NCBI GenBank assembly: GCA_020852815.1
Contig: JADZAN010000028.1
Location: 1-64,000 of the forward strand
Length of the DNA stretch: 64,000 bases
Direction of reading: 5' to 3'
DNA from: Gemmatimonadaceae bacterium
GTDB taxonomy: Bacteria; Gemmatimonadota; Gemmatimonadetes; Gemmatimonadales; Gemmatimonadaceae
Shown here: piece after piece, positions 34,859 to 63,667 of the stretch
How positions within the stretch are numbered: position 1 is the first letter of the stretch
Layout: every line of letters begins with the position of its first letter
Program-made: the position numbers and the translations under genes
The notes under the pieces: generated by a model
Databases searched by the model: none
Seen by the model: the letters and a program-made list of their open reading frames with translations, nothing else
Told to the model about the DNA's origin: nothing

Positions 34859-34945
34859 GTCCCGCACTCTCGAATGCCGCAATCGTGCCGTCCTTCAATT
34901 GATAGCGCGCGAAGGTAGTTTGGGGGAACCTGCCTAGAAGCTATC

Positions 34946-35038
34946 TCATGAATGGCGGAGCAGAATCATCGCACAGCCGAACTGCACGAAGGCGAGGAAG
35001 CGAGCCATTGCGCTCGCGCGTCGACGCGGTCCGCCTGA
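34946..35038 (-). pseudogene. Transposase C-terminal remnant (IS5-like)
   Basis: Read leftward, the frame ends RRRASAMARFLAFVQFGCA, then MILLRHS and a stop at 34946. That matches the usual C-terminal tail of IS5-group transposases. No N-terminal part or start remains. Short inverted repeats CTAGAAG (34934-34940) and CTTCTAG (35061-35067) flank the fragment and may be IS-end remnants. The rest of the 239-bp gap (34841-35079) holds no gene. The remnant marks the left border of the accessory region. Confidence 0.55.
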
Positions 35039-35079
35039 GTGTCGGCCTGGGATACCGGATCTTCTAGAGAGGGGATAGA

Positions 35080-35481
35080 ATGGCGTCGATTCGCGTGACG
35101 TATCCAGAATCCCGCGTGGTGTTTCTTGATGACGCGCCGTTCGGCCTCACGAACGAAACGCAACAGCTACCACCAGGTACTTACACGACTGACCTGGGTG
35201 CACCCGTCGACTACACGCCTGGCAATCGCACCGTGTCGGTGACCGCCCATACGCACCGCGTGCTGGCATTCGCGCCGGAGGGAGCCTTTGTCGCCGCCGT
35301 CGCTCAGAGAGCGGCACCGATGGCGGCGAAACGTGGGGTCGTGACTCGCCCGAAGGCGACGGCCCCTGCACGGAAGGTCGCGAAGAAGAAGCGGAAGAGC
35401 GCAGAGCGCGCACCCGCCAAACGCGCAACCGCCAAGCGCGCTTCGATGAAGCAAAGCTCCACGAGGCGCAAGAAGCGCTGA
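35080..35481 (+). CDS. Small protein with Lys/Arg/Ala-rich tail
   Basis: This 133-residue protein has an N-terminal part (about 1-85) that looks like a small beta domain (MASIRVTYPESRVVFLDDAP, then TPGNRTVSVTAHTHRVLAFA). Residues 86-133 are a basic low-complexity tail (KKKRKSAERAPAKRATAK) like those of histone-H1-like or nucleic-acid-binding proteins. I do not recognise the family. It lies 92 bp upstream of the metallophosphoesterase gene on the same strand, so the two may be co-transcribed. Confidence 0.6.
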   Translation: MASIRVTYPESRVVFLDDAPFGLTNETQQLPPGTYTTDLGAPVDYTPGNRTVSVTAHTHRVLAFAPEGAFVAAVAQRAAPMAAKRGVVTRPKATAPARKVAKKKRKSAERAPAKRATAKRASMKQSSTRRKKR

Positions 35482-35573
35482 GTTGTTGTGAAGTCGTTGG
35501 TTGCTTCGGGCGACGTTTCGAGCGACGAACACCGCGGTGAGGGCCAGCAACACTGAACGGTTGAGGAACTGGA

Positions 35574-38045
35574 ATGGCGCTGAAGACCGGTACCATCTGG
35601 CACATGTCCGACTTGCACCTGCGCGCGGGGGTGGACACTGGGGCAGCGATTCAGCGGGCGGACGTCGACGGGCTCGACCCCACAGCATTCTCGGTCGACG
35701 CGCGGAGAGCTTTGTTCACGTTCGTCGAGCGGCAGCGCGAGGAAGCCGAGGGGCTACCCGACCCTCGGGTGGCAAACGCCCTGGTGATATCAGGTGACTT
35801 GGTGCATCAGAGCGGGTGGACCGATACCGTCATCGTGCAAGGATTCCTGGAGCGGTTGCGGAAGGAGCTGCAACTACCGCCGGAACGTGTCGTCGTCATA
35901 CCCGGCAATCACGACGTGAACTGGGCGACTGCACGTACGAAACCGTCGGCAAGTCGCGATGAGTTCATGGCAGTGACGAGTGGCTACACGAGAGTCAACG
36001 AACACTGCAGCAGTGTCTGGTTCGATGACGACGGGCTCGCCTTCCTGCTGGCGGATACGGTCGCTCACGTGGGCGTACCGGTCAACCTCGGGCGCGTGGT
36101 CACGGAGCTGTGCGAGGCATTCCCTGCGCTGGCGAAGAAGGAGGTGGAGCAGGTCCTCGCCGGGGCGCTTGCGGCAGAAGTCCCGACGATCGCGCCCAAC
36201 GCTATCGCGGAACAGTTACAACATATCGCCGCCTCGCGCACGCCGGAGTTCGCCGCGTCGGGACACTTGCCGATGCCGTCCGACAACCCGCGGCTACCCA
36301 ACGACCTGCTCGGCTTCCTGGTCTCGCACTACCCGCTGCTCCCTTGCCCCTACACGAATGTCGAGGTGAAACCGTTCCACCTTCCGGTGGGTGCGGGCCC
36401 CGCGAAGCGCGTGCTGTCCGAAGCTGGCGTCTTCGTCTGCCTGCACGGGCATCAGCACGTCTCGTGGGTCCACGCGGAAAAGACCACGTACGGCAACCCC
36501 GACGTCCGGTTCTGTTGCGTGGGTGCCGGAAGTCTCACTCAGGACGACAAGGCGTTCAACATCATCCGATACGCATTGATGACCGAGACGGGCGAAGCCC
36601 GGCTCGCGATACAGCCTGTCTATATTCGGGCGGCTAGCGTACAAGCGGGCGAGATCAAGCGGTTCTACATTCCGCCGCGGGTCGGGATTCCCGCACGCGC
36701 CGTCCGACTCGTGGAGCGCATCTACGCGGACGCGCATGTACGGGGTGACAAGTGGTACTCGGACATTTCCACGCAAGGATGGAGAACCGACGCCGCCGGC
36801 AAGCGGGTGAGGAAAATCCCCGTCGTCATTCAGACGGATCAGGCGGGGCCTCCGACGAAGATTCGGGCCCAACCGCTTACCGCCGGATTCCACGTATCGA
36901 TCGACCCGAAGAACCCGCAGGACCCGGGCCCCGGTACGCGCTCTTCGATCCGCGTCGTCGCCGACAACACGACAGATCGCCTGAGCTTCGCCATTCGAGA
37001 ATTCAATCGTTTCGCGTACTGCTCAACGGTCGAGGAGAAGGCCCGATGTTACGGCGGAGAGCTCGCCGTACCGAGTCTTGCATATGACGAGGAGGCGATC
37101 GTTCATGTCGTGCGCGTGCCGTGCGAGCGCCTCGAGATCTACGTTTGCACACCCGACGTGGCACCGACGCTCAACGACCTACGCCTCGTCACTTACGTCG
37201 AGACGGCGAAAGGCGCGCTGGAAGAGGTCAAGCAGCTCCAAGCGATGACCGATCACACCCTCGAAACGTGGCCCGAGGTGAAGCGAGTGCGACTCACCGT
37301 CCCACGCCCCATGGAAGGGGCGGCTTACGGTGTCGCGTGGAAGCTCCCGCCGCGAAGGGTAGCCAACGACGATACGGCCTCCAACCCGGCGCACCGGGAC
37401 GCGCTACACCGAGGCATCGAGCAGCTCCGGTTGAAGCTTCTCCAGGGAAAGAAGCAAGCGGCGGTGCGGGCGCAGCTGCTCGCGGCGTGGCGTCCCTTCG
37501 AGGTATCGATTCGGACGCGAATCGCGACCGTCTGCCCGGGGGCCGAAGAGTCCGCGGAGATTACACTCGTTGTCCCCGACCAACCGCTCCTCACGCTCGA
37601 AGAGTACCAGGCGCAGTACGAAAAGCTGCTGCGCCCCGAGGTCTCACTCGTGCCCGTGCTGGCGAGTTTTGATCACGCTGACAAACGATACAAGGCGAAG
37701 ATCACTGTGGGACTCGGCGTCGCAGGTGTAGCCTACCTGACTAACCAGATCATTCACTACGATAGCACGAAGACACCAAGTCAGCCGCAGCTCAACGGCG
37801 ATGCGCCACCCTCACCCTACTTGGCGCTCTCCGTCGAGGGCGACGAGCTCGCGAAGCACTCGAGTCTGTATGCTTACCCGCTCGTGCATCCCTGGCTGCG
37901 TGGCACCCCACTGGGTTGCGTGTGCGTCGGATCAATAGAAGGGGACTACCACCTGCAGCTCGAACAAGAGCTCTTCAACCCGGCGCTTCACGAGTTCCTG
38001 ATCAACCTCAGCCGTGCCGGAGGAATCGGAAGGCCGTTCGCATGA
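35574..38045 (+). CDS. Calcineurin-like metallophosphoesterase with long unknown C-terminal part
   Basis: The protein has 823 residues. The N-terminal domain (about 5-340) has the full set of metal ligands: Asp13-x-His15 (SDLHL), Asp75 (ISGDLVH), GNHD (111-114), a His in LVSHYPLLP, and LHGHQH (290-295). It should therefore be an active dimetal phosphoesterase or nuclease. The remaining 480 residues match nothing I recognise; they look globular, with helical and beta segments and no membrane helices. Base use is less extreme than in the backbone genes. It lies among mobile-element remnants near a CRISPR locus, so a defence role is possible but unproven. Confidence 0.82.
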   Translation: MALKTGTIWHMSDLHLRAGVDTGAAIQRADVDGLDPTAFSVDARRALFTFVERQREEAEGLPDPRVANALVISGDLVHQSGWTDTVIVQGFLERLRKELQLPPERVVVIPGNHDVNWATARTKPSASRDEFMAVTSGYTRVNEHCSSVWFDDDGLAFLLADTVAHVGVPVNLGRVVTELCEAFPALAKKEVEQVLAGALAAEVPTIAPNAIAEQLQHIAASRTPEFAASGHLPMPSDNPRLPNDLLGFLVSHYPLLPCPYTNVEVKPFHLPVGAGPAKRVLSEAGVFVCLHGHQHVSWVHAEKTTYGNPDVRFCCVGAGSLTQDDKAFNIIRYALMTETGEARLAIQPVYIRAASVQAGEIKRFYIPPRVGIPARAVRLVERIYADAHVRGDKWYSDISTQGWRTDAAGKRVRKIPVVIQTDQAGPPTKIRAQPLTAGFHVSIDPKNPQDPGPGTRSSIRVVADNTTDRLSFAIREFNRFAYCSTVEEKARCYGGELAVPSLAYDEEAIVHVVRVPCERLEIYVCTPDVAPTLNDLRLVTYVETAKGALEEVKQLQAMTDHTLETWPEVKRVRLTVPRPMEGAAYGVAWKLPPRRVANDDTASNPAHRDALHRGIEQLRLKLLQGKKQAAVRAQLLAAWRPFEVSIRTRIATVCPGAEESAEITLVVPDQPLLTLEEYQAQYEKLLRPEVSLVPVLASFDHADKRYKAKITVGLGVAGVAYLTNQIIHYDSTKTPSQPQLNGDAPPSPYLALSVEGDELAKHSSLYAYPLVHPWLRGTPLGCVCVGSIEGDYHLQLEQELFNPALHEFLINLSRAGGIGRPFA

Positions 38046-38136: not shown

Positions 38137-38355
38137 ATGAAATCCGAACATTCATCGCGTCTGCACTGGGTCGAGTTGTCACCTGGCTTCGCCACGCTCG
38201 TCCTTCGGAGAGAGCCCTCGGGGAACCTTGCTGAAGGCACACTTGTATCTTATATTCCCGCAACGACTTACGATGAGCCAGCGAGAAATCATGCAGCGAG
38301 CGATGCTTCGCCGTCCGGCGAAAAGGTGCTAAAAGCAAGCGGGGGAGCCACTTAG
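38137..38355 (+). CDS. Possible small ORF of unknown function
   Basis: A 72-codon frame starts at ATG 38137 after GGGAGG and ends inside a strong hairpin at 38341. The product (MKSEHSSRLHWVELSPGFAT and on) has no recognised motif. Spacing of the putative ribosome-binding site is reasonable, but length and lack of conservation evidence keep this tentative. Confidence 0.25.
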   Translation: MKSEHSSRLHWVELSPGFATLVLRREPSGNLAEGTLVSYIPATTYDEPARNHAASDASPSGEKVLKASGGAT

Positions 38356-38472: not shown

Positions 38473-38685
38473 TTTGTTCATCCCGCTGTCGAGCGGAATG
38501 CGTTCCGGTGGGCGATCTCAAGCGTGCCGGGCAGGTACGGTCCGCTCTGCTCTCCGAGCTTCGACAGCAGTAGCGACAGGTACACCTCCGTGGACTTGTT
38601 CTCGAAGCGGAAGCCGTGAAAGTTGTGAGTTCTCTGAATTCTGTCGCAGTTCTTCTCTAAACTCTGTCGCATCCGGGGTCGGGGG

Positions 38686-39486
38686 TTAGGCCGGGTCGGA
38701 CGTGACCACGGCCCGCGGACTGTCCTCGCCCTTGAGGTGGCGGGTGCGGTAGGACCGTCCGCGCATCTCGAAGTGCGTCCCGCGTTCCAGCAGGCGGTCG
38801 AGGATCGCCTCCGCGAGGTCGCCATCATGCAGCACCTGGCCCCACGCCGCCAGCGGCTTGTTCGTGGTGACGAGGAGGGGCTTGCCGCGCAGATAGCGCT
38901 CGTTCACCACGCGATAGAGCACGTTGGCCGCGTCGGTGGCGTGGGCGAGGTAGCCGATCTCGTCGAGCACGAGGACCGCCGGGTGGAGATACGGGGCGAC
39001 GGCGGCGTCGAGGGTGCCTAACGTGGCGGCGTGCGACAGCTCCCCGATGAGGAGATCGGCCGACACGAAGCGCGCGTCGTGCCCGTGCTGGATCGCGCGA
39101 TAGGCGACGGCCACGGCGAGGTGCGTCTTCCCGGTGCCGCTCGGGCCACTGAAGATGGCGTGCCGGCCCTCGGTGACGAACTCGGGGCCGAGGTAGCTGC
39201 CGAGCATCTGGCGGCGGAGCGCCGTCTGGAAGGTGAAGTTGAAGTCGTCGATGGTGCGGAGCGTGGGAAAACGCGCCGCGCGCACGGCGCGCCGGATGCG
39301 CGTCTCGGCGCGATGCGCGATCTCCTCGGCGATCAGCGTCTCGAGGAAGGCGTGATAGCTCATCCCCTCCGCTTCGGCACGCGTGGCCAGCTCGCCATGC
39401 AGGCACCGGACGGTCGGCAGGTGCAAGCGGAGCAGCATGGCGTCGAGATCCTTCACCGGGGCCGGTGGGCGCGTCGTCGCGGTCAT
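38686..39486 (-). CDS. istB: IS21 transposition helper ATPase IstB
   Basis: This 266-residue AAA+ ATPase, related to DnaC, selects target DNA and activates the IstA transposase. The ATG at 39486 overlaps the istA stop by 4 bp, the normal IS21 arrangement. Walker A is GPSGTGKTHL (114-123) and Walker B is VLVLDEIGYL. The C-terminal FEMRGRSYRTRHLKG is typical. The gene looks intact. Confidence 0.93.
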   Translation of the reverse strand: MTATTRPPAPVKDLDAMLLRLHLPTVRCLHGELATRAEAEGMSYHAFLETLIAEEIAHRAETRIRRAVRAARFPTLRTIDDFNFTFQTALRRQMLGSYLGPEFVTEGRHAIFSGPSGTGKTHLAVAVAYRAIQHGHDARFVSADLLIGELSHAATLGTLDAAVAPYLHPAVLVLDEIGYLAHATDAANVLYRVVNERYLRGKPLLVTTNKPLAAWGQVLHDGDLAEAILDRLLERGTHFEMRGRSYRTRHLKGEDSPRAVVTSDPA

Positions 39487-40944
39487 GACGCCACCTCCGT
39501 CACGGGCGTGGACGCGGTCAGGACCTCCGCACTGGGCGGGCCCTCGCGGACCGTCTCGGCTAGCCGCTCCACGTACTCCGCCCCAATGAGGCGTTGCATC
39601 AACGCCCGCTGCAGCACGCCGCGGAACGTCGCCTCGCCGAGCCCCTCGAGCGCATTGAAGAGGCGCTCGACGTCGCCCTGCCACGTGTGCGCGCGCTGAT
39701 GCACGAGCTCCGTCACGTACGCTTCGCCCACGGGGCCCAACTCGAGCAGGCGCTCACGCATGAAGTACAAGCGCTTGCGCGCGCCGTACACGGCGGCGAG
39801 CTGCTGCGCGCGCTGGCCCGTCAGGTAGCTCACCGTGCCGACGAGCGGGACGCGCGGATGCAGCGCCTCGTGGCGGCCGCCCGCCGTCACGATCTTCACG
39901 CGGTCGGGATAGAGGTGCAGCGTCGCCGGGAGGCCGCAGGCCGCGGCCGGCATCGCATACCGCACGCCCTGGTAGTGCACCATCGCCGTCGGCCCGACGG
40001 TCACCGGGAGCTGCAGGCCGTAGTCGGCCGGTGCCACGGCGAGCGGCTGCAAGCGCGCCTGCTCGACGCGCCACCGCACCACGGGCGGTTCCTTGGTCGC
40101 GCGCGAGGGGCGGACCTCATTGACCTCGCGCAGCCACTCGGTGAGCTGCTGCGGCAGATCGTCGGTCAGATCGACGAAGCGGCGCGCGCGGAAGAAGGCC
40201 CGCTTCACGAAGCCCACCAGATTCTCCACGGCGCCCTTCTGCTCGGGACGGCGCGGCGTGCAGCGCTCGATGCTGAAGCCGTAGTCGAGGACGACCTGGG
40301 CGAGCGTGGGATTCCAGACGATCCGCGCGCCCTCGCGTCGGAGGACGACCGTCTTCGGATTGTCGAAGACGACGCGCAACGGCACGCCGCCGCTCGCGGC
40401 GAAGCTCGCGAGCAGGCTGCGCACGAGCGGCTCCACGCGCTCGGTCGCGACGACGACCACGTGGATCCAGCGCGAGTACTTCAGGCGATACGCCGCGAAG
40501 TGGATCCGCCGGCGCGCGTCGTTCGTCAGGCGGACATCGACCTGGCCGAAGTCAAACGGCGCTTGCCTCGCCGGCGACCCCCTCGAAGCGCACCATCACC
40601 TCGGCCGGGATCGCGGTGCGTGCCCCGGCAATCACCCGGTAGGTCGTTGAGAGACCGAGCGGCGTGCCGGCCTCCCGCAAGCGGCGCCAGATCTCGCCCG
40701 GCGGCAGCGCGGGCTCCGCGGTGAGCCACTCGCGCACGGTCGTGCGGAGGGCCGCATCCACGCGGGGCCGCCCGAGCCGCCGCGCGGCACGCGCCGCGGC
40801 GTCATCCGCCGCCGTGACGGCGGGCTCCTGGGCAATGCGCTCTACGGTCCGCCGCGAGACCTGAAACTGCCGGGCGACGGCGCCCGGTGTGACGCCGCTG
40901 GCGAGCAGCGCCTGGACGGCATGTCGGTCGAGCATCCTGAGCAT
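39483..40944 (-). pseudogene. istA: Frameshifted IS21 transposase istA
   Basis: The N-terminal part (40944 down to about 40553; LDRHAVQALLASGVTPGAVA, then an HTH with QFQVSRRTVERI) and the C-terminal DDE part (continuing FDFGQVDVRL, then VVFDNPKTVVL and EQKGAVENLVG) lie in different frames. The junction near 40547-40556 reads GCC-GTT-TGA in the first frame; skipping one G restores ...GCC-TTT-GAC. Joined, the protein would be about 486 residues, normal for IstA. One extra base is the simplest explanation, so the element is probably not autonomous. A programmed shift or a sequencing error cannot be excluded. Confidence 0.85.
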
Positions 40945-41106
40945 CCTCCTCGGCGCCTCCCCGGGTGGGGGCCCGGCCGGTGCCGGGCACGACGCCATCG
41001 TGGGTCAGCGACCCGCGGATGCGACAGACTTTAGAGAAAAGGTGCGACAGAGTTTAGAGAACCCACAGGCGTGATGACGCGGGACGACGGACGATGACGG
41101 GCCACC

Positions 41107-44100
41107 GCTTCAATGGAGCCCCGCTCTAACGAGCGAGGAAGGTTCCTCGACGACTTTCCGGGTTTCGGTCTCCGTCTTCCGGCTTCAATGGAGCCCCGCT
41201 CTAACGAGCGAGGAAGGCACGGCCGCCGTGTCCAAGCGATTGCCCCATTTGTTGCTTCAATGGAGCCCCGCTCTAACGAGCGAGGAAGGAACGGAGCTGC
41301 GCCTCGCCCTCGCTCAGCCAGCGCAGGCTTCAATGGAGCCCCGCTCTAACGAGCGAGGAAGGAGGTGCGGCGCCGAGTGGACACCGTTCTTGACGTCGTG
41401 CTTCAATGGAGCCCCGCTCTAACGAGCGAGGAAGGAGTGGTGGACGCCATGAGGTGGACCCCCGCGACCCTCACGCTTCAATGGAGCCCCGCTCTAACGA
41501 GCGAGGAAGGAGGCGACACGGTGAAGCTCCTGGAGAAGCGCGCCGAGCTTCAATGGAGCCCCGCTCTAACGAGCGAGGAAGGAGCCACGAGCCGCGTCTC
41601 TATGGATGGTGCGGCGGCTAGCTTCAATGGAGCCCCGCTCTAACGAGCGAGGAAGGTGTGCGTTCGCCGCGTGCGCGCCCTGATACGTCAGCGCGCTTCA
41701 ATGGAGCCCCGCTCTAACGAGCGAGGAAGGGCGTCGTCGCACGCTACGACGGTCGGCAGTGGGTTGGCTTCAATGGAGCCCCGCTCTAACGAGCGAGGAA
41801 GGCTGAAGGACGAACGCAACGCAGGAGAAGACCTGGTGCTTCAATGGAGCCCCGCTCTAACGAGCGAGGAAGGCAGCCTCTGCGTGGCGGGCACTCAGTG
41901 CCGACGAGAAGCTTCAATGGAGCCCCGCTCTAACGAGCGAGGAAGGGTAGCGCGTCGCGAGCCCGTACCGAAACGCGTCCGGGCTTCAATGGAGCCCCGC
42001 TCTAACGAGCGAGGAAGGTACCGCCTCTACCGATTCGGCGACGCGGGGCGGTGCGGGCTTCAATGGAGCCCCGCTCTAACGAGCGAGGAAGGCGCGTGAT
42101 CGCGTACGCCCACTCGCGGCGTGAGCGCGCTTCAATGGAGCCCCGCTCTAACGAGCGAGGAAGGCCGAACACCATGAGGTTGGGCACGCCGCGCCCGTGG
42201 CTTCAATGGAGCCCCGCTCTAACGAGCGAGGAAGGCGGGCGCGGCTCGGCGCCGAATGGGGTGCAGTCGCGCTGGCTTCAATGGAGCCCCGCTCTAACGA
42301 GCGAGGAAGGTGCGGCGGCGGGATGCGCGCCCCAACCCACCGGGGGCTTCAATGGATCCCCGCTCTAACGAGCGAGGAGGGTGGATCAAGCTGGAAAAGG
42401 AGGAAGTATGACAGCAGAAGCTTCAATGGAGCCCCGCTCTAACGAGCGAGGAAGGTCCAACAGCGTCTTGATCCCGCTCTTGTTGAGCCAGCTTCAATGG
42501 AGCCCCGCTCTAACGAGCGAGGAAGGTACGACGATAAGCGGAACATCGAATCCGCGAGAATGCTTAATGGAGCCCCGCTCTAACGAGCGAGGAAGGCTAT
42601 GAAGCTTTCGGTGGTAGAGATGCAAAGTTAGATGCTTCAATGGAGCCCCGCTCTAACGAGCGAGGAAGGGGTCTCCAGCGCCTCTGGGCTCTGCAGCATG
42701 GGCTGGCTTCAAGGGAGCCCCGCTCTAACGAGCGAGGAAGGAAGGCCGACGGGCGGATCGTGCGGAAGGTGAACAAGCTTCAATGGAGCCCCGCTCTAAC
42801 GAGCGAGGAAGGGGCGCTGTTCTTCCCGGACGCGCTGATCCAGTGCCTGGAGCTTCAATGGAGCCCCGCTCTAACGAGCGAGGAAGGCAGGACAGGAGAT
42901 TCTCGCCTTCGATCAGGACCGCTACGCTTCAATGGAGCCCCGCTCTAACGAGCGAGGAAGGCCCTACTCGACGCTTGGATCCTGCCCCACTGCAGAGCTT
43001 CAATGGAGCCCCGCTCTAACGAGCGAGGAAGGAAGGTTGCCAAGGCGCGTGTGAAGGAGTGTCTGTTGGGGCTTCAATGGAGCCCCGCTCTAACGAGCGA
43101 GGAAGGGGCGTTCTTCCCGGTCCTCACAGTGCGGGCGCACAAGCTTCAATGGAGCCCCGCTCTAACGAGCGAGGAAGGCCCATCGGGCGACCCAACACCG
43201 AGCCCCGACGATCGGCTTCAATGGAGCCCCGCTCTAACGAGCGAGGAAGGTCGCGTCGAGATACGCGATGACGTCGGCCTGCGTATCGAGGCTTCAATGT
43301 AGCCCCGCTCTAACGAGCGAGGAAGGCTCGCCGCGCTCGGGCGCACGCTCACGGTGCGCCGGGCTTCAATGGAGCCCCGCTCTAACGAGCGAGGAAGGGA
43401 CGCGCAGCCCCTCTGCCGCACCCGTCGTCGTCGCGCTTCAATGGAGCCCCGCTCTAACGAGCGAGGAAGGCTGCGCACGCAGCGCGGGCGCCACCAGCAC
43501 CCACGGCTTCAATGGAGCCCCGCTCTAACGAGCGAGGAAGGTTGGCGTAGCCGAAGACGAGCGCGGTGTAGGCGGGCTGGCTTCAATGGAGCCCCGCTCT
43601 AACGAGCGAGGAAGGAACGCCGCGAAGAACATCGGGGGGCGTATCATCGCGCTTCAATGGAGCCCCGCTCTAACGAGCGAGGAAGGTATCTCGGCTACGC
43701 CATCGAGGAGGAGGCCCCATGGCTTCAATGGAGCCCCGCTCTAACGAGCGAGGAAGGTTCGAGTCGCAGGTTCGTATCCTCGTAGGGGTTGTAGCTTCAA
43801 TGGAGCCCCGCTCTAACGAGCGAGGAAGGTTGACGACGAGCCCGCGAAAGTCAGTCGCTATATCGAGCTTCAATGGAGCCCCGCTCTAACGAGCGAGGAA
43901 GGGGGTTGCCGCACGTGAAACGCTCGGTCGAGATTCAGCCGCTACAATGGAGCCCCGCTCTAACGAGCGAGGAAGGGATATCGGCGCCGCTGACGCTGGC
44001 GTACCCACGCGCGCTTCAATGGAGCCCCGCTCTAACGAGCGAGGAAGGAAGTCGCTGGCGGGGTTTTGTTTGACCGTGGCCAATTCCGGCTTCAATGGAG

Positions 44101-47100
44101 CCCCGCTCTAACGAGCGAGGAAGGGCGGAGATGAAGGAGTACGAGAGCAAGCGTCGCGTTGCTTCAATGGAGCCCCGCTCTAACGAGCGAGGAAGGCGCC
44201 AACGCCGCGCAAATGGCGATGATGCAACAGGCGCTGGCTTCAATGGAGCCCCGCTCTAACGAGCGAGGAAGGGGGCGCACGTTTTTCGACGCCCCCACGC
44301 ATGTTATGCTTCAATGGAGCCCCGCTCTAACGAGCGAGGAAGGAGATCATCGCGCAACAGAACGAGATGCGCGGTTTCATGCTTCAATGGAGCCCCGCTC
44401 TAACGAGCGAGGAAGGGCCGTCTCCCCTTGACGACGGCCCCGGCGCGCGCGGGCTTCAATGGAGCCCCGCTCTAACGAGCGAGGAAGGTCCGGGAGACTT
44501 CCGTCCAATTGGTGCCGTCGTAGTAGCTTCAATGGAGCCCCGCTCTAACGAGCGAGGAAGGCAATCGTGTTCGTCGTCGCACGGAACCGCATTCCCCCGC
44601 TTCAATGGAGCCCCGCTCTAACGAGCGAGGAAGGATGCCAACGGGGTAGCCCTCTGGGGAGAGTACTAGCATGCTTCAATGGAGCCCCGCTCTAACGAGC
44701 GAGGAAGGCGACTGGGGCGCGGAGGAAGGAGACGATGACGACGCCGCTTCAATGGAGCCCCGCTCTAACGAGCGAGGAAGGCCGAATATGTGAGCGCGAC
44801 CGCCTGCCCGCTGAGCAGGCTTCAATGGAGCCCCGCTCTAACGAGCGAGGAAGGCACCTGACGCCTTCTCGGCGAACCGGGCGGGGATGGGGCTTCAATG
44901 GAGCCCCGCTCTAACGAGCGAGGAAGGAAGCGGGCGCCCCGAGTCGGCGTTCTACCTCTGCCGACAGCTTCAATGGAGCCCCGCTCTAACGAGCGAGGAA
45001 GGCACGCTGTATCGGGACGCCATAGTGCGCGCGCGTAAAGCTTCAATGGAGCCCCGCTCTAACGAGCGAGGAAGGCTCGCTCCCGTTAGGCATCGGGAGG
45101 CGCCTCGCCGCTTCAATGGAGCCCCGCTCTAACGAGCGAGGAAGGTCGGTATTCGACGTCACCGCCCGAATAGCGACCTGGCTTCAATGGAGCCCCGCTC
45201 TAACGAGCGAGGAAGGGATGCTCGCGGCGGAGCAGTGGAGTGAACAACCTCTATGCTTCAATGGAGCCCCGCTCTAACGAGCGAGGAAGGCATTACCGCG
45301 CTCGTCTCGCTCGTCCGTGACGCCTCGCTTCAATGGAGCCCCGCTCTAACGAGCGAGGAAGGCCGATCATTCTCGCGCTGCCGACGATCGACGACGCGGA
45401 GCTTCAATGGAGCCCCGCTCTAACGAGCGAGGAAGGACGTTAGGCGCGCTCGAGGCAGCACCCGTGACCGCAGCTTCAATGGAGCCCCGCTCTAACGAGC
45501 GAGGAAGGGGCGTGACCTGGTGGAGGTGGACGATCGGCTGGGCGCAGCTTCAATGGAGCCCCGCTCTAACGAGCGAGGAAGGTGGCGGTGCGCAATCACG
45601 CTGTACGCCGTGTCGCAGCTTCAATGGAGCCCCGCTCTAACGAGCGAGGAAGGAGCGCACCCACTCCCAGGAGACCATCCCGTGACTGACGGCTTCAATG
45701 GAGCCCCGCTCTAACGAGCGAGGAAGGGACGTGGTGCGCAAGACGGGCTTCCTGCGCGATACCGTGCTTCAATGGAGCCCCGCTCTAACGAGCGAGGAAG
45801 GGCCAGAGGACGACCGCGACCGCGCCAGACCTGTCTTCCGGCTTCAATGGAGCCCCGCTCTAACGAGCGAGGAAGGACAACGGCACCAACGGCGAACTCC
45901 TCTGGATCTGCAAGAGCTTCAATGGAGCCCCGCTCTAACGAGCGAGGAAGGCACCATCTCCTCGTCGTCGCAGTCTGGCGGCACGTAGCTTCAATGGAGC
46001 CCCGCTCTAACGAGCGAGGAAGGTTCACTCGTCGTGAGGTCTACGGGGCCGAGGTGCCGGCTTCAATGGAGCCCCGCTCTAACGAGCGAGGAAGGGGGCG
46101 ATGCGCGCCGGTGTCCCGCTAGAGGTGATGCGGCTTCAATGGAGCCCCGCTCTAACGAGCGAGGAAGGATGGACGGCGATGCGCTGAACGGGTCGTATCC
46201 GCAACTCGCTTCAATGGAGCCCCGCTCTAACGAGCGAGGAAGGTTGATAAGCTCGTTGTAGCGCTTCGTACGCTCGTGCGCTTCAATGGAGCCCCGCTCT
46301 AACGAGCGAGGAAGGGGCTCGGTGATCCTATTCCGGGGCGAGAATATCGACGCTTCAATGGAGCCCCGCTCTAACGAGCGAGGAAGGACGAGGTGAACGC
46401 CTATTGGGCGCGCACGGGCAAGGATGCTTCAATGGAGCCCCGCTCTAACGAGCGAGGAAGGGTCGGCTGGCACACGAGAGGAGGAGAGGATGCGACAGCT
46501 TCAATGGAGCCCCGCTCTAACGAGCGAGGAAGGATGTCTCTCTCTGGGAGGAGCGCCTCACATGACACCCGCTTCAATGGAGCCCCGCTCTAACGAGCGA
46601 GGAAGGCAGCTTGAGGCGAGAGAAGACGCGACGCTTCGCCGTGCTTCAATGGAGCCCCGCTCTAACGAGCGAGGAAGGACTACGACGCGTCGGGGGTGTG
46701 GGCGAGGGCAGCGGGCTTCAATGGAGCCCCGCTCTAACGAGCGAGGAAGGCACTCGACGTGCCCATGCGCACGATCACGGCGCACCAGCTTCAATGGAGC
46801 CCCGCTCTAACGAGCGAGGAAGGCTCACCATCGCGCCTTGGGAGGGATGATGTCGCACGCGCTTCAATGGAGCCCCGCTCTAACGAGCGAGGAAGGGGGC
46901 GGACCTGAGGAAGGGAGGTTGAAGATGCGCCGCTTCAATGGAGCCCCGCTCTAACGAGCGAGGAAGGTCGACGGCGTCATCACGTGGCCGGCGGAGTTCA
47001 TGGCTTCAATGGAGCCCCGCTCTAACGAGCGAGGAAGGTACAACTGCGACTCCACAACCGAGGAGGTACCCAAGCTTCAATGGAGCCCCGCTCTAACGAG

Positions 47101-47623
47101 CGAGGAAGGGGGGAAGGCGGGGCGCCGGGGGCGTGGGGCGATCAGCTTCAATGGAGCCCCGCTCTAACGAGCGAGGAAGGCTGGCTTCCGCGCGATTATA
47201 TCGAGCGCACGTTAGGCGCTTCAATGGAGCCCCGCTCTAACGAGCGAGGAAGGCCCGCGCCGGGACCGGTGGGGGTCACGTCCTGATTGCCGGCTTCAAT
47301 GGAGCCCCGCTCTAACGAGCGAGGAAGGAGGCGCGATACGCGCTCGTGGACGCCGAGGGGACGTAGCTTCAATGGAGCCCCGCTCTAACGAGCGAGGAAG
47401 GGATGCAGGCGGCGGCGGAGGCGGCGGCGGCCGACGTGGCTTCAATGGAGCCCCGCTCTAACGAGCGAGGAAGGCTGATGGATCACGACACGGGTACACA
47501 GATCGGCCTCCTGGCTTCAATGGAGCCCCGCTCTAACGAGCGAGGAAGGGCGTAAGGCGTACATGATCGTGAACGGTTGGCCGAGCGGCTTCAATGGAGC
47601 CCCGCTCTAACGAGCGAGGAAGG
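41107..47623 (-). CRISPR. CRISPR array, 90 repeats and 89 spacers
   Basis: I counted 90 copies of a 36-bp repeat that on the plus strand begins GCTTCAATGGAGCCCCGCTC and ends TAACGAGCGAGGAAGG; spacers are 35-39 bp. Read leftward the repeat ends ATTGAAGC, the usual 8-nt crRNA 5' handle, and contains a 7-bp stem CTCGCTC/GAGCGGG around GTTA. Transcription is therefore leftward, in line with the cas operon. Variant repeats occur only in the left part: starts 42346, 42562 (one base short), 42706, 43291 and 43941. That fits an older, leader-distal left end. Frames reading SMEPRSNERGR are repeat translations, not genes. Confidence 0.98.
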
Positions 47624-47843: not shown

Positions 47844-48140
47844 TCAGATCACCGTCGCCTGATACGAGTCCCGGCCGATCGCCAGTTGGCGGCCCAGCAC
47901 GTCGAACGACGCCGCGAGCCGAGAGTCGGCGGCACCCAGGTCCACGATGAGAACGCGATCGTCCTTGAGATTGATCACCGCCGTTAGCCGCTCGTGCATG
48001 ATCTGCCGCTCGACGGGCGAGAGATCGCATACGAAGAGCGAGTACTGCACCGGATCGCCGAAACCGTTCATCACACGATACGTCCGGCGCAGCCGCTGCG
48101 CATCGCTCACGTCATAGGCAACCAGGTACCGGCGCCGCAT
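47844..48140 (-). CDS. cas2: CRISPR adaptation protein Cas2
   Basis: The product has 98 residues. It has the ferredoxin-like Cas2 fold: RRRYLVAYDVSDAQRLRRTY with the conserved first-strand Asp, VQYSLFVCDLSPVER for the second strand, and DDRVLIVDLG. Cas2 dimers bridge two Cas1 dimers in the spacer-integration complex. The gene lies 3 bp after the cas4-cas1 stop and directly precedes the leader. Confidence 0.95.
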   Translation of the reverse strand: MRRRYLVAYDVSDAQRLRRTYRVMNGFGDPVQYSLFVCDLSPVERQIMHERLTAVINLKDDRVLIVDLGAADSRLAASFDVLGRQLAIGRDSYQATVI

Positions 48141-48143
48141 CGA

Positions 48144-49862
48144 TCACCTCGTCGTGAACGCGCGGTAGTGCTCGGCTTCTCCCATCAGGACGGCGCGGAG
48201 CAGTCGCGCCTGCAGCTCCACGACACGGCGATAGCTCACCACATAGCCAAACATCGGGTGCGTGACGGTCTGGTTCATTCGTCGCTCATACGCGGAAATC
48301 ACCGCGCGACGCCCGGTCGGCGACAAGGCGACGCCGCGCGCTCGGCGCACGAAGTCCTTCTCCACGACTTCGCCCTGATTGAACACGTTCAGCGTCACCG
48401 AGTCGCCCACCAATGGCCGGAACTCCTCCGCCAGGTCGAGTGCCAGGCTGGGACGACCGTAGTGCGGCGCATGCAGGAACCCGACGTACGGGTCGAAGCC
48501 GACCACGGCGGCCGCCAAGTTGCAATCGCGCACTAACAGCGCGTAGACGAACGACAGGACGGCGTTCACTTCGTCCTTGGGAGGGCGCCGATTGCGACCT
48601 CCTTCCGCGAACCGCTGCGACGCCCACGCCCCCGCCCCCTTGAGCAGTTGCGGGAGCGCACTGAAATAGAGTCGCGCCGCCATTCCCTCGATCCCCATGA
48701 GCTGATCGACGGCACGAGCTCCGCGCGTCTGCCTGGCGTGCATCGCCATGGTCGCCAGCAATCGGCGATCGGGCGCCGCATGGTTTCGGCGCAACAACGT
48801 GCGCTGGTTGAGGATCTTCCCCTCTGCCATGCGCCGCGCGATTTCGAGCGACGCCTCTGTCGCTCCCGCTACCGCATGCTGGCGTACGCGAAGGAGGACG
48901 TTCTTGTGTCCCAGTCCGCCGTTGAGGACGCCGACCAACCAACCGGTCGACGAATGAAAGGTCACCGGGATCCCCTCGTCGCAGACGGCGCGCATGGCTT
49001 GCGTCGTCAGCTGCACATTCCCGAACACCGACAGCGCCGAGGCGTCCAGCAATCGGACCGACACCGGCGGTTCGTCGGGCACCGTCACGTGCAATGCGTC
49101 GCCTCGCTTCCCGATCGTCCCGCCCTGTGCTTGCACATACACCGGAAGTGCATCGGGGCGCGCGGGGACGAGGCGCCGCACCTCATCGGGCGGTTCGCCG
49201 CTCCAGGCACGCGTTTCATCGGGGAGGCAGATGCCGCTGAGTGAGCATCGTACGCACTTGGGGCTGTCGCGGAGTGGCGGCGGGAGTCGCCCGCCCTCGG
49301 CCATCGCACGCGTCCCCTGCACCGCGTCCTGCGTCATCTCGATCAGCGACTCGTCGAATGCAACCTTGACGCGTGTCTTCGACTCGGCGAAGTACAACAC
49401 ACCCGCAGCGCATGAATAGCCGTTGTCGCGGAGAATCAGCCCCTGCAGGCACAATTGCACCCGCTCTGGGTCCCAGGCACGATTCGGTATGTCGGGCACC
49501 GCGCCCCGCTTGTACTCCACCGGAGTGGCCTCACGACCTTCGGCTTCGAGCAGATCGATGCGGGCGATGGCGCCGAGCCGGTCTGACGAGAGCAACACCG
49601 ACCGAGCCGTGAGCGCAAGAGCCTCCGCGTCACCGCCGTCCGCGCTCGACGCTTCATCGTCCGGCGGCGCCGGCACATCAGTCGCGGGTTCCTTGTCGAC
49701 TCGGCGATGCACCCAGCGTCCTTCGATGGTGTCGAGGTTGTCGTCCCACTCGCCCTGCACCCACTCCAGGAAGGAGAGGCGCGGGCAGTAGACGAACTCG
49801 TTCACCATGCGGGCGGGGACGAGGTCGGGGTGGGTGGGGGCAGCTAGTCCGGTTTCCGACAA
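48144..49862 (-). CDS. Cas4-Cas1 fusion protein (type I-G adaptation)
   Basis: The fusion has 572 residues. The Cas4 part (1-230) has an iron-sulfur set, Cys26 (YCPRL) and Cys203/206/212 (CVRCSLSGIC), plus nuclease residues Asp103 and Glu116-x-Lys118 (VEYKRG). It trims and orients prespacers by PAM. The Cas1 part (about 238-572) has the metal site Glu in GIEGMAARLYF, His in VGFLHAPHYGR and the acidic pair in DLAEEFRPLVGD. The first codon appears to be TTG at 49862; an internal ATG at 49808 would cut into the conserved PARMVNEFVYC segment. Cas4-Cas1 fusions are a hallmark of type I-G (formerly I-U). Confidence 0.95.
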   Translation of the reverse strand: MSETGLAAPTHPDLVPARMVNEFVYCPRLSFLEWVQGEWDDNLDTIEGRWVHRRVDKEPATDVPAPPDDEASSADGGDAEALALTARSVLLSSDRLGAIARIDLLEAEGREATPVEYKRGAVPDIPNRAWDPERVQLCLQGLILRDNGYSCAAGVLYFAESKTRVKVAFDESLIEMTQDAVQGTRAMAEGGRLPPPLRDSPKCVRCSLSGICLPDETRAWSGEPPDEVRRLVPARPDALPVYVQAQGGTIGKRGDALHVTVPDEPPVSVRLLDASALSVFGNVQLTTQAMRAVCDEGIPVTFHSSTGWLVGVLNGGLGHKNVLLRVRQHAVAGATEASLEIARRMAEGKILNQRTLLRRNHAAPDRRLLATMAMHARQTRGARAVDQLMGIEGMAARLYFSALPQLLKGAGAWASQRFAEGGRNRRPPKDEVNAVLSFVYALLVRDCNLAAAVVGFDPYVGFLHAPHYGRPSLALDLAEEFRPLVGDSVTLNVFNQGEVVEKDFVRRARGVALSPTGRRAVISAYERRMNQTVTHPMFGYVVSYRRVVELQARLLRAVLMGEAEHYRAFTTR

Positions 49863-49988
49863 TCGGGCTCTCGAAGAGTTGTGTTGAGCACGACACGGGA
49901 TTCAGCATGCCACGGAGGTCTGACATTCGGCCTCTCGGTCGACTGTGGGCCGAGCGGCAATACATGCTACTGATCACGGACAGCCAAC
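49863..49988. other. Only sizeable gap in the lower cas operon
   Basis: A 126-bp non-coding stretch lies between csb2 and cas4-cas1, while most other genes in the run overlap or nearly touch. It could carry a separate promoter for the adaptation genes; no clear promoter motif is visible. Confidence 0.4.
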
Positions 49989-52175
49989 TCACCGATGGTC
50001 TGTCTCCTCGACGGCGTGGAACAGCCCTCCACCGAGATGGCGTGTTCGTCCGAGCGAGAGCGGCCCGGCAACGCGCCGCTCGAAGCGCAGTTCCACATTC
50101 CCCGTGAGCCCGATCCCGGGCGCGCCCCGAACGTTGCTCGACTTCACTTTGGGCTCGGGAAGACCGAGGCGACGGCACTCCGCAACGACGTTGTCTGCGA
50201 GAATCTCCGTCGCCGCGCCTTCCTTCGCATGTCGTGTGACGACGTATGGTGTGATGGTTTTCCACACGCGCGAATGCCCTAGGAGCGAACTATCGCCTTC
50301 TCCAAAGTCCGCGGGAGAAAGCGCCAGGACTCCGGCGCGTCCCGCTCGCAGCTGGCGAAACCCGACAAGCGCGGCATCAAGGGCACGAAGGTGGTCCAGT
50401 TCCTGCGCCGTGGGCACGCGCCGCTCGACGATGTGCGGTGCGAGGACGAGCAACGTTCGCGCTTCTGGGTCGAAGGCGAATGAGAGATGAGAAGAATGAG
50501 ATCGACTAATGGGAGCGCCGTCCTCCGCGTGACCGCTGAAGAAGGGTGCAAGCGGCTCGCGTTTGCCGAGTGTTGCCTGCACTCTCGCCATGACCGCGCG
50601 GCGCAGCGCTCGTGCAAGTTCGAGCGGGTGAGGCTGGTCAGCGAGGCCCTCGGTGATCGCGAAGACATATGTGTCCGGAACGACATCCCTTGCGGGCGCC
50701 ATGAGCCCAAGCCCGAGAAAGCGCCCATCACCGATAAGTAGCGGGCCCTCGACCGGTGCGCCGAAAGCAACCTCGACGTGCCAGAGGCGCTCCTTGTCGA
50801 AGCGTGTTCCCGCGGCGAACGGCTCGACGCGTGCGCCGGCTCCGTCGAAAGGCTCACGCTGCAGGCGAATGCTCACCGCTGGAGTGCTCACGCCCGCATG
50901 ACGGAGCGCTTGAACTACTGTCGCTCTCGCTCCCGAGACTTCCACGACGCGCTCGAGGCCGGACTTGGCCTCCGCAAGCTTTCTCGTTGGCTCGATGCGC
51001 CGGCGCCTGCCTTCCTCGGGGAGTACGACTGGCGTTACAGATCTGAATACTCGGGCCGCGGCGCCAACGCCGTAGTGCCGCAGCATGTCGTCCTCGGCCG
51101 ATGGTGACAGGAGGACGTCCTTCACCTCACCCGTGTCCGCATCGAAGAGTTCTGCGCCCGAAAACGCCCAGCGAACATCCTCGTTTCGAAGCGGGCACGC
51201 CGCGGGGATTTCGACAAGGAGGCGCCGGATCGCGCGGTCTGCGTAGTGCATCCCGATGGATGGGATTGCGACGATCCGCACGCGGTCCTTGGCAGGCGCT
51301 GCGTTGGAACCATCCGGCTTGCGACCGACGAGATACCGGTCCACATCGTGAATCCGATCGGGCATGGCGGTGCTCAAGCGATCGCGAGCTGCTTCCCGCG
51401 CCGCTACGACGAGCGACGATGCGCCTGCGAGGGGCCACGCCACACGATGGTCCGTGTCGGCTGAAGAGCGAAGCTCGAAGACGTGGCGAACAGGAGGGCT
51501 CTCGTACGAGATCCTTCGATAGCTCGGTTGCGGCGGTTTGACGAAGACACGGTGGCCGTTCTCGGTACGAAATCGCGGAGCCTGATACCGACGTTCGAGG
51601 CTCTTGAACGATCCCTTATCTGGGCATGCCAGCAGAAGGGCGTTGCCCGCGCTCGGTCTCCGAGTAGTGCCGTTGTACTCGACGAGCTTTGCATCCAGCA
51701 CCGTTTCCTCGAGAACCTCTCCCCAAGCCCAGGCCATATCAACGCCTCGCCCGAGCTGGTAGAGCTTCTCGGAGAGCGCGCAGATCTTGTCCGCCTGAGA
51801 AGCCCCGTCCTCCGCGAAAGGCCACGCGTAGATCCAGGGCATCGCTGCGTCGAAGTGGCGTGGCCTCCAAACCTTCTTGGCTCCGCGTGTCTTGGCGATG
51901 CTCCGAACATCGCCGCCAAACTTGTCGAGGTCGTTGTTCGGCAGGAACATCGTGACCGCCTGGCCACGCGTCATGCGCGGCGAAGCGATGATCGGGGCAC
52001 CGGGGAGTGCTTCAAGCCAAGTAAGGGCTTCCTTGGTCTGTTGGTCGAGTGGTCCACTAATGCCAGCACCCGCCACGAGTGCTTGGAACAAGCGAAAAGG
52101 CGACGGCAGCTCGGCACCGTCTCCGTGATAGCGTCCCTCGTGTGCGCGCACGTAGATGGTCAGATAGCGGGTCAT
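49989..52175 (-). CDS. csb2: Csb2, type I-G Cas5-Cas6-like protein
   Basis: This 728-residue GSU0054-family protein begins TRYLTIYVRAHEGRYHGDG, then LPSPFRLFQALVAGA, as usual for Csb2. It ends ELRFERRVAGPLSLGRTRHL, then GGGLF, the Cas6-like glycine-rich end. In type I-G this protein both caps the crRNA 5' end (Cas5 role) and cuts pre-crRNA (Cas6 role). It is longer than the roughly 500 residues I expect for the family, with the extra length apparently in the middle. It overlaps csb1 by 4 bp. No other Cas6 is present, so it is the likely processing enzyme for all effectors here. Confidence 0.9.
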   Translation of the reverse strand: MTRYLTIYVRAHEGRYHGDGAELPSPFRLFQALVAGAGISGPLDQQTKEALTWLEALPGAPIIASPRMTRGQAVTMFLPNNDLDKFGGDVRSIAKTRGAKKVWRPRHFDAAMPWIYAWPFAEDGASQADKICALSEKLYQLGRGVDMAWAWGEVLEETVLDAKLVEYNGTTRRPSAGNALLLACPDKGSFKSLERRYQAPRFRTENGHRVFVKPPQPSYRRISYESPPVRHVFELRSSADTDHRVAWPLAGASSLVVAAREAARDRLSTAMPDRIHDVDRYLVGRKPDGSNAAPAKDRVRIVAIPSIGMHYADRAIRRLLVEIPAACPLRNEDVRWAFSGAELFDADTGEVKDVLLSPSAEDDMLRHYGVGAAARVFRSVTPVVLPEEGRRRRIEPTRKLAEAKSGLERVVEVSGARATVVQALRHAGVSTPAVSIRLQREPFDGAGARVEPFAAGTRFDKERLWHVEVAFGAPVEGPLLIGDGRFLGLGLMAPARDVVPDTYVFAITEGLADQPHPLELARALRRAVMARVQATLGKREPLAPFFSGHAEDGAPISRSHSSHLSFAFDPEARTLLVLAPHIVERRVPTAQELDHLRALDAALVGFRQLRAGRAGVLALSPADFGEGDSSLLGHSRVWKTITPYVVTRHAKEGAATEILADNVVAECRRLGLPEPKVKSSNVRGAPGIGLTGNVELRFERRVAGPLSLGRTRHLGGGLFHAVEETDHR

Positions 52176-53446
52176 TGTTTGGGCTGCTCACTCTCTGGAC
52201 CTTCGTCGGCCTTCTTCACGAGCAGCTTCTTCGCCTCTTTGAGATCGAACTCGTGCTCGAGGTCGGGCTTGTCATCCTTCATGAGTCCGCTGGGCCACTT
52301 CGCCTTGAACGGCGTCGCAGCGTCAATCGCATACGCAACAAGTTGGTCATGCTTCGGGAGGCTCACGGCGGTGGGCTCGCCGCGGCGCGGGACTTTCGTC
52401 CAAGCATCGTCGTTGGCGTAGCGAAGCAGGCATCCCTCGCGCAGGAAAAGTTCGAGATCCGCAGTGGCCGCCAGAAGCGAGAGCCCGAGCAGGTACCTCT
52501 GAAGCTCAGTGGTTTCGGTGCCGTCCTTGCCGCGAATGCCTCGAAGCGCCACGAGGTTAATCGTGACGTCGCGCTCGATGCTTCCCTTGGCGAGCACACC
52601 ACCGAGCACGCGCGCATCCGGATTGGGGGCGTCGTCGCGGAGCTTTGGGATAGCGAGTTTCGTTGGCCGAAACACAGCGGGAGCGTCGGCGAATCCAACA
52701 GTTGAGAGTTTGACGCCCTTTCCCTTCGGGGCCTTGTCGAGCTCCTTCTTCTGCTCCTCGCTCAGCGCCTTCCACACCGAGTTGAACTGTGCGGCGCTGT
52801 GCAGGATCTCGACATCCCATGCGCGAATGATCGAGCGCACCAAGCGAGGACGCTTTTCACCGGAGCCGCCGCGTGAATCCCACACGCCGAAGACAAGCGA
52901 GGTCGGGGCGATTGCAGCGAGTGGAGCGGCGTTACCGTTGTTGCGTAGGGCCTCAAAGGCCTTGGCGATCTCAGGGGCGAGCGTCCGGCTCGCGAGCACG
53001 ACGGCATCCGCGCTGCGATGTGCGAGGTCGAGGAGCGAACGCTTCTCGACGTGGCCATCTTCACCCTCTTGCTTCTTCTTTCCCGTCTTGCCGTCCGCCC
53101 TGTGCAAGATGATCTCGATCTGCGGCACCAACCTCGCGAGCGGGTTCAGCTCATTACCCTCTGCGTCCCTGCCGGTCGACCTGAAGATGGGCTCCAAGCG
53201 ATTTGCCTGGGACCCGACCGTGTCGATCGTCGCGACGCACGTGCCGTCCGCGAGAGTATCGATGTTGTAACCGATGTCGGCGTACGTTGGAGGGAAGATG
53301 ACGCCGCGGCCGCTTTCATCCGAATCGACGGGAAGGAGCTTCTGTCGCAGATGGAGGGCGACCGGACCATCGGGTTGCAGACACGAATCGAGGAACTCGG
53401 CAGCGCTCGGCGATTGAGTGGTGTCCTGTCCGGGCTTCGATGTCAT
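52172..53446 (-). CDS. csb1: Csb1, type I-G Cas7 backbone protein
   Basis: The protein has 424 residues and belongs to the GSU0053 family. Diagnostic motifs are GVIFPPTYADIGYNID, ATIDTVGSQANRLEPIF and TSLVFGVWDSRGGSGEKR, then PRLVRSIIRAWDVE. It forms the helical backbone of the type I-G Cascade along the crRNA spacer. It starts one base after the stop of the CARF-HEPN gene and overlaps csb2, so it is in the same operon as the type III genes upstream. Confidence 0.95.
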   Translation of the reverse strand: MTSKPGQDTTQSPSAAEFLDSCLQPDGPVALHLRQKLLPVDSDESGRGVIFPPTYADIGYNIDTLADGTCVATIDTVGSQANRLEPIFRSTGRDAEGNELNPLARLVPQIEIILHRADGKTGKKKQEGEDGHVEKRSLLDLAHRSADAVVLASRTLAPEIAKAFEALRNNGNAAPLAAIAPTSLVFGVWDSRGGSGEKRPRLVRSIIRAWDVEILHSAAQFNSVWKALSEEQKKELDKAPKGKGVKLSTVGFADAPAVFRPTKLAIPKLRDDAPNPDARVLGGVLAKGSIERDVTINLVALRGIRGKDGTETTELQRYLLGLSLLAATADLELFLREGCLLRYANDDAWTKVPRRGEPTAVSLPKHDQLVAYAIDAATPFKAKWPSGLMKDDKPDLEHEFDLKEAKKLLVKKADEGPESEQPKQ

Positions 53447-53447
53447 G

Positions 53448-62631: not shown

Positions 62632-62668
62632 GTTGTCTTCTTCTTCATCGTAAAGACCACGAAATGAG

Positions 62669-63667
62669 TCATCCTCGAGTCTCCTCTCGCGCGAACGTCG
62701 TGACCTTGTTCTTGCCGGACAGATCGAGATCAAACGCGAACCTACGCATCGGCAGCGGCAGATCGGCACCGGCGAGCGCAGCGCGCGCCAGCATCGGCGG
62801 CAACGGATGCCCCCAGACGGCGTAGCGAACCTTGCGAGTCTCGTATTCGTCGGGCCGAGCGTGCTCGAGGCCAATCGCCGCGAGGATCTCCACCACTGGC
62901 GAGGCGGCGATGGCGTCCTTTTGCGTGTTCGGTGAGTAGCCCGCGTCGATTGCCGTCCACGCACCGCGCGGATCGAAGTTGAAGCTGCCACCCATCGGTG
63001 TTACCACGTCGAAGGGCGCCCTCAGGAGGACCTCGCGTTGCTCCATCCAGAGTTGAGCCAGGCCTCGGTGCTTAAGCTCGCCGATCGATTGATGCTTCTT
63101 CGGTTTCGCGCGCACGCCCTGAAGCATCTGGGTCGCGATGCGGTAGGCCGACCGGTTTCCGGAATAGAGCTTGAAGTCATCACGCGAAAGCCACGGTGAG
63201 AAGGGACTCTTTCGAGACTCAGCCCAGTGGCTTACGACTAACCGACGACCTTCGTCCGCGAGCTGGACTGGAAGCGCGTTTCGATCGCCTTCGCCCGCGG
63301 GAAATACTGGCGTCGTGATGCGACGCTGCACCTCGCTAGAATCGTCGTCGAACTCACCACCGTCTTCACGTTCTATGGGCGTGGCGTCTTCCTCTCCGTT
63401 GTCGTCACCATCGGCTGCACCGCCTTCAACGTAGCCAATGGGTGTCAATTCGCTGATCTTCGCCTTCGCCAAGAACTCCAGGACGACCTCGAACGGGTTC
63501 TTGCCACCGTCAGCGCGAAGAACGAACGTCGCTTGCGCGTCGCTCCAGTCGAAGTGCGCCTCTACGCCGCCGAGCAGTACCTCTGCCGCCTCGAGGAAGC
63601 CCATGCAGGCGAGCACCTGGCCAGGGTTCCTGAGATCGACGAGGATGGATGCACTCATATGTGTCAT
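62669..63667 (-). CDS. Csb3/Cas8g-like type I-G protein
   Basis: This 332-residue protein starts at ATG 63667, overlapping the cas3 stop by one base. The N-terminus SILVDLRNPGQVLACMGFLE is characteristic of the type I-G protein encoded between cas3 and csb1 (Csb3, also called Cas8u2/Cas8g). An acidic loop (about 85-115; EGGAADGDDNGEEDA) and a conserved GGSFNFDPRGAWTAIDAGYS segment follow. It is the expected large-subunit equivalent that recognises the PAM and recruits Cas3. In ordinary I-G loci csb1 would follow directly; here five type III genes intervene. The exact family name is from memory of motifs. Confidence 0.8.
   Translation of the reverse strand: MTHMSASILVDLRNPGQVLACMGFLEAAEVLLGGVEAHFDWSDAQATFVLRADGGKNPFEVVLEFLAKAKISELTPIGYVEGGAADGDDNGEEDATPIEREDGGEFDDDSSEVQRRITTPVFPAGEGDRNALPVQLADEGRRLVVSHWAESRKSPFSPWLSRDDFKLYSGNRSAYRIATQMLQGVRAKPKKHQSIGELKHRGLAQLWMEQREVLLRAPFDVVTPMGGSFNFDPRGAWTAIDAGYSPNTQKDAIAASPVVEILAAIGLEHARPDEYETRKVRYAVWGHPLPPMLARAALAGADLPLPMRRFAFDLDLSGKNKVTTFAREETRG

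Follow-up and report, generated by a model that had tools for sequence, protein, structure and literature searches.

A candidate conflict-type metallophosphoesterase with a GAF-like C-terminus in an accessory island beside a Gemmatimonadaceae CRISPR-Cas locus

A gene at positions 35574-38045 (forward strand) of the window, the whole stretch of 64,000 nucleotides of Gemmatimonadaceae DNA that was analysed, encodes an 823-aa protein that may be a modular conflict-type, probably anti-phage, phosphodiesterase. Pfam searches, a motif check, and profile and model evidence give it the order MPE-beta-GAF: an N-terminal metallophosphoesterase (MPE) domain sits on a beta-rich and helical scaffold which ends in a putative GAF-like sensor. 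At the level of sequence, this reading is carried by intact MPE motifs, the fold predicted for the C-terminus, the apparently accessory island in which the gene lies and a relative in which a pseudo-MPE is joined to EAD1 and trypsin domains, and we hold it with about even confidence.

The catalytic MPE domain covers aa ~1-345 (35574-36608, forward strand), and Pfam Metallophos (PF00149) matches aa 7-296 with 36.9 bits against a cut-off of 21.5. All five metal motifs are intact, reading SDLH (12), SGDL (73), GNHD (111), SHYP (251) and GHQH (292), and they correspond to the metal-ligand set of calcineurin-type MPEs (DxH, GD, GNHD, H and GHxH). The N-terminus can thus be assigned by its sequence to the calcineurin type with high confidence, and the claim of the original prediction that every catalytic motif is present was borne out, as was the presence of both of its ORFs (35080-35481, 133 aa, and 35574-38045, 823 aa). 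That prediction also held that 480 C-terminal residues match nothing; there is indeed no Pfam match beyond aa ~345 at E values up to 10, but the last part of the chain is not featureless, as it contains a GAF-like domain. Between the two lie a beta-rich region (aa ~346-598) and a helical connector (aa 605-653).

The GAF-like domain was placed at aa ~630-816 (37461-38021, forward strand) by profile comparison, predicted topology, structural alignment and invariant columns. The C-terminal regions of the protein and its two relatives were aligned and compared using hhalign with the GAF_2 domains of the window's own genome, for which 26 matches were listed and 25 used, one being omitted as it was below the cut-off. 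The score was 24.4, compared to 10.3 for the reversed alignment, and the maximum from 300 column shuffles was 17.5, with none of the 300 reaching 23.2. The same comparison was made for 12 segments taken in turn from the alignment of the whole proteins: the two which contain the domain (starting columns 600 and 660) scored 25.8 and 26.3, and none of the other ten (starting columns 0-540) scored above 18.1.

Structure prediction for the C-terminus, proposed as a check in the original prediction, was informative to a degree. The full-length AlphaFold2 model had a pLDDT of 43 and was unusable, and the three-sequence model of aa 479-823 had a mean pLDDT of 56, with strands across aa 506-590 at ~60-88, followed by the two helices of the connector, and values of ~24-68 across the GAF-like part, where the order of strands and helices is nonetheless consistent with GAF topology. 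VIA-align of this model gave Z scores up to 8.9 over 138 residues at 3.3 A, and the 50 rows listed were all GAF-bearing proteins, aligned mainly across aa 630-823. As the tool warns that Z scores of 7-8 are common among unmatched models, this result is strong only in combination with the profile test. The top Foldseek rows were the GAF-A/B domains of PDE2A (best E 1.7e-3, TM ~0.27, with none at E <= 1e-3). PDE2A resembles the window protein in that GAF is linked to a phosphodiesterase, but it carries an HD-type catalytic domain rather than an MPE. The domain is termed "GAF-like" because Pfam GAF models matched none of the three members at E values up to 10; taking the profile scores against shuffles, the predicted topology and the structural alignment together, the assignment is very probably correct.

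Within this domain C782-x-C784 and H762 are invariant in the alignment of the three relatives. NKFDE is the cyclic-nucleotide motif of GAF domains, and it is not evident in the GAF-like domain of the 823-aa protein. These two observations favour a redox, metal or other small ligand, which on sequence grounds appears more likely than cAMP or cGMP.

Clear relatives of the protein are few and close at hand. The searches gave only two, each from the Gemmatimonadota family to which the window genome belongs, so that with the window genome counted 3 of 179 family genomes were matched by the MPE or C-terminus query, 3 of 395 genomes in the phylum sample and 4 of 394 in the class sample, where the fourth (genome G204) is a weak match of 85 residues at E 5e-4. 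Scans of genome_contigs and viral_contigs with the 823-aa protein alone, which are pattern-based and may miss divergent copies, returned no relatives; the C-terminal alignment as query recovered the same two from genome_contigs and nothing from viral_contigs. The C-terminal queries had no match on plasmids, and the phage collection gave one MPE match of 58 residues with no annotated features there. As there are only three sequences among the data searched, every family-level inference is thin.

The first relative, in genome G243, is 50% identical to the window protein and its MPE motifs are intact. About 1 kb upstream of its gene (L004 10047-13284) are genes for an S8 subtilase with a Lys/Ala-rich N-terminus (Pfam 8.8e-39; PADLOC subtilase 1.3e-47) and then an alpha/beta hydrolase, which may form a separate unit. 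The second, in genome G169, is 30% identical, and its MPE motifs read SDLR, TGDL, GRRD, SYLP and GPAL, so that most metal ligands are lost. Its chain runs on into EAD1, at 25.1 bits where the cut-off is 24.2, and Trypsin_2 (8.5e-18), in which the regions around a trypsin triad (His, Asp and Ser) can be made out by eye, and the gene that follows encodes TCAD7 (1.1e-9). The EAD1, trypsin and TCAD7 components are hallmarks of predicted bacterial conflict systems. Identity between the window protein and this relative is even along the chain (32% in the MPE, 29% in the linker and beta region and 31% in the GAF-like domain), so that the whole scaffold is retained despite the loss of catalysis. The neighbourhood survey that had been proposed for the C-terminal domain showed conflict genes at G169, the subtilase and hydrolase at G243, and, in the 30 kb read by eye around G243, no repeat of the adjacency to CRISPR seen in the window.

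The closest named match is to a defence family, although well under its threshold. The best NCBIfam match for all three proteins was DS9_1_antiphage, at 1e-19 for the window protein, 5e-20 for G243 and 2.7e-8 for G169, all below the cut-off; the window protein scored 70.7 bits where 420 are needed to call DS-9. More generally, the MPE matches to defence families are far under the curated cut-offs and fall chiefly in the first 120 residues. In the available text of the DefensePredictor study (PMC13092281), DS-9A and DS-8 defend, the MPE catalytic residues are required and the targets are given as unknown, and metallophosphoesterases are presented as anti-phage effectors validated only recently. 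Judged by profile, DS-9A and DS-8 are the nearest validated MPE families, though matched below cut-off. DS-9, which combines the DS-9A metallophosphatase with the DS-9B HAD phosphatase, shares its MPE class with all three relatives, but its MPE starts near residue 190 of a 486-position model and that of the window protein is N-terminal, and the window has a GAF-like C-terminus and no adjoining HAD gene. The neighbours of the MPE gene are a 133-aa orphan, a 72-aa ORF and IS21 genes, and no HAD phosphatase is among them. DS-8, a single MPE-NACHT protein, is described in the same available text with an N-terminal MPE, the putative effector, on a regulatory C-terminus, and it too gives a weak profile match; it differs in that the window protein has no NACHT/STAND NTPase (Pfam found no NTPase or NACHT family in it), carries a beta-rich and GAF-like C-terminus instead and matches across only ~50 MPE residues.

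A further likeness is to the EAD-coupled systems. According to the accessible part of Kaur et al. 2020 (PMC7159879), predicted NTP-dependent conflict systems count EAD1, trypsin and calcineurin-type effectors among their components, and the EAD-coupled ones have VMAP, trypsin and calcineurin-type phosphoesterase effectors. The G169 protein has the scaffold of the window protein fused to EAD1 and Trypsin_2, with TCAD7 adjoining, but the window copy is without EAD1, and no description of an MPE-beta-GAF chain was found in the same part of that paper. EAD1 gave 0 matches in the window genome or protein, in a search with weak controls, and TCAD7 gave 0 in the window genome. A STAND NTPase or MoxR/vWA partner was not seen in the window ORF list. 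In the literature searched, so far as its text was available, no named MPE-GAF defence protein was found.

From these features we infer a substrate, a ligand and a mode of gating for the window protein. The GAF-like domain, or partners bound on the beta region, would sense an infection-linked small molecule or a redox or metal change; sensing would then release or block the MPE, whose substrate may be a nucleotide, a cyclic nucleotide or nucleic acid. In the sister genus the scaffold without MPE catalysis bears EAD1 and a trypsin-like peptidase, as would be expected if the scaffold stays and the output enzyme is exchanged. That the protein has a conflict or defence role at all, as its sequence and context suggest, is in our judgement evenly balanced. 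A bolder version can be put forward tentatively, in which MPE-beta-GAF is an undescribed immune scaffold whose GAF gates the MPE, the MPE can decay to a pseudo-enzyme with output passing to an EAD1-linked trypsin, and the C-x-C and His residues form a redox or metal sensor and not a cyclic-nucleotide one. An MPE with a predicted GAF-like regulator offers a concrete ligand-gating hypothesis for MPE anti-phage effectors. The G169 sister copy, with its dead MPE and apparently live protease, is a natural test of MPE function, and compared with the window copy also informs effector swapping on a shared scaffold.

The MPE gene lies between two small ORFs, at 35080-35481 and 38137-38355 on the same strand. 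The gaps between the three are 92 and 91 bases, and a purine-rich stretch lies just 5' of each ATG. No promoter was found. The membership of the upstream gene in the unit is uncertain. It encodes a 133-aa orphan with a small N-terminal domain and a Lys/Arg/Ala-rich tail, and it had been described as a small basic protein, which fits the last 53 residues (net +21, 42% K/R) but not the first 80 (net -2). It has no Pfam match; a PEGA-like fold, likewise considered, was set aside as a weak lead only. In the 395 phylum genomes no homologue scored above chance level, with 11 genomes at E <= 0.01 including its own and a best other E of 0.002 per genome, and none was detected beside the G243 or G169 relative (best E 0.10). 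The absence of homologues, together with the absence beside the relatives, indicates that the two genes do not form a conserved pair.

The downstream ORF (72 aa) has a Shine-Dalgarno-like GGGAGG ahead of its ATG and lies before the IS. It had no Pfam match, searched as 71 aa with the Met left off, and no NCBIfam match. It is weakly similar to a small ORF in the same place at G243 and to the linker between the GAF and EAD1 parts of the G169 protein, all three sharing a faint W-x4-P-x4-L pattern; the three pairwise scores were matched by 257, 65 and 80 of 5000 shuffles, and the frame was chosen after looking, so this likeness in sequence is only a lead. The possibility that the ORF is an adaptor recurring in the window genome was rejected, as matches to the 71-aa query (without Met) were at chance level only.

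The unit plausibly sits in an accessory, mobile-looking island, judging from comparison with a same-genus genome, G040, whose similarity to the window ends at 34815, inside the gene preceding the island, and in which nothing matched the MPE unit across the 20 kb compared. By eye, this left flanking gene resembles an ordinary peptidyl-prolyl isomerase gene, and at the left edge of the island the minus-strand translation of 34920-35040 looks like an IS transposase C-terminus. On the right, the IS boundary in the original prediction was verified as an IS21-family element at 38624-41067, between the MPE operon and the CRISPR array, with 55-nt inverted ends of 85% identity and IstB and IstA pieces. 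The element has double terminal repeats, and its IstA frame is apparently split (40552-40998 and 39483-40460). The position next to CRISPR-Cas was likewise confirmed. The array, at 41117-47598, has 90 repeats of 36 nt with a spacing of 70-76, of which 85 are identical, and is followed by a mixed locus (47844-62991 of the window and L064 3668-6748) with type I-G genes for Csb1, Csb2, a Cas4-Cas1 fusion and Cas2, and by eye, outside the window, a gene for a Cas3-like helicase. A type III module comes directly after these, with CARF-HEPN, Csm3/Csx10-like RAMPs and Cas10, and the single array appears to serve both modules.

With this context in place, the other readings can be weighed against a conflict-type phosphodiesterase. 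The original prediction was of an uncharacterised defence pair made up of a nuclease and a DNA-binding partner. The intact MPE, the non-Pfam C-terminus and the accessory island by CRISPR-Cas keep a conflict-type role plausible, but the pair itself is not conserved, and the nuclease-with-partner part lacks support, as the basic protein is an orphan not detected beside either relative; DNA binding by it is possible but unsupported. For an Mre11/SbcD-like MPE that cuts DNA delivered by the basic protein speak the strongly basic tail and the fact that the sole sequence matches to solved structures, all weak, are to Mre11/SbcD (E=0.025 and above). There is, however, no match to the SbcD subfamily (SbcD_rel_arch at 0.018 is below its cut-off), no SbcC/Rad50-type partner was seen by eye in the window ORF list, and the G169 pseudo-MPE is a scaffold kept without catalysis. 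For an MPE of this class a nucleotide phosphodiesterase activity is just as likely as a nuclease one, and we consider the delivered-nuclease explanation unlikely.

Somewhat less probable still is that the protein is an accessory of the adjoining type III module, its GAF-like domain binding, or its MPE degrading, a cyclic oligoadenylate that Cas10 produces. Were the IS21 element absent, ~0.6 kb would separate the MPE gene from the array, and with Cas10 and CARF-HEPN proteins encoded at the locus the cell probably produces a nucleotide signal. The gene is nevertheless at the array end distal to the cas genes, Pfam and NCBIfam profile searches found no CARF or SAVED domain in the 823-aa protein, and no cas gene was noticed by eye in the 30 kb read around the G243 relative or seen on the 5.5-kb G169 contig. 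A nucleotide phosphodiesterase under GAF regulation with a housekeeping or stress-type role, acting in signalling turnover as GAF-controlled PDEs do and merely carried into the island, is a better candidate than either, although still a doubtful one. GAF with phosphodiesterase is a common regulatory pairing, as the PDE2A rows illustrate, the left flanking gene looks ordinary, and the window unit encodes no typical conflict partner. Such a role sits poorly with the very patchy distribution, the empty syntenic site in G040, and the G169 fusion to EAD1-trypsin beside TCAD7 with MPE catalysis lost. The same three observations bear on the original prediction, which had named homologues chiefly in core or metabolic contexts as speaking against a defence role; no such preponderance was seen.

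The sole plasmid match to the MPE is in Nostoc (L012 3409-7740), where a WD40-Ras/Roc GTPase-MPE protein has a CHAT-like C-terminus. The next gene encodes a NACHT protein, making this an unusual immune-type chain.
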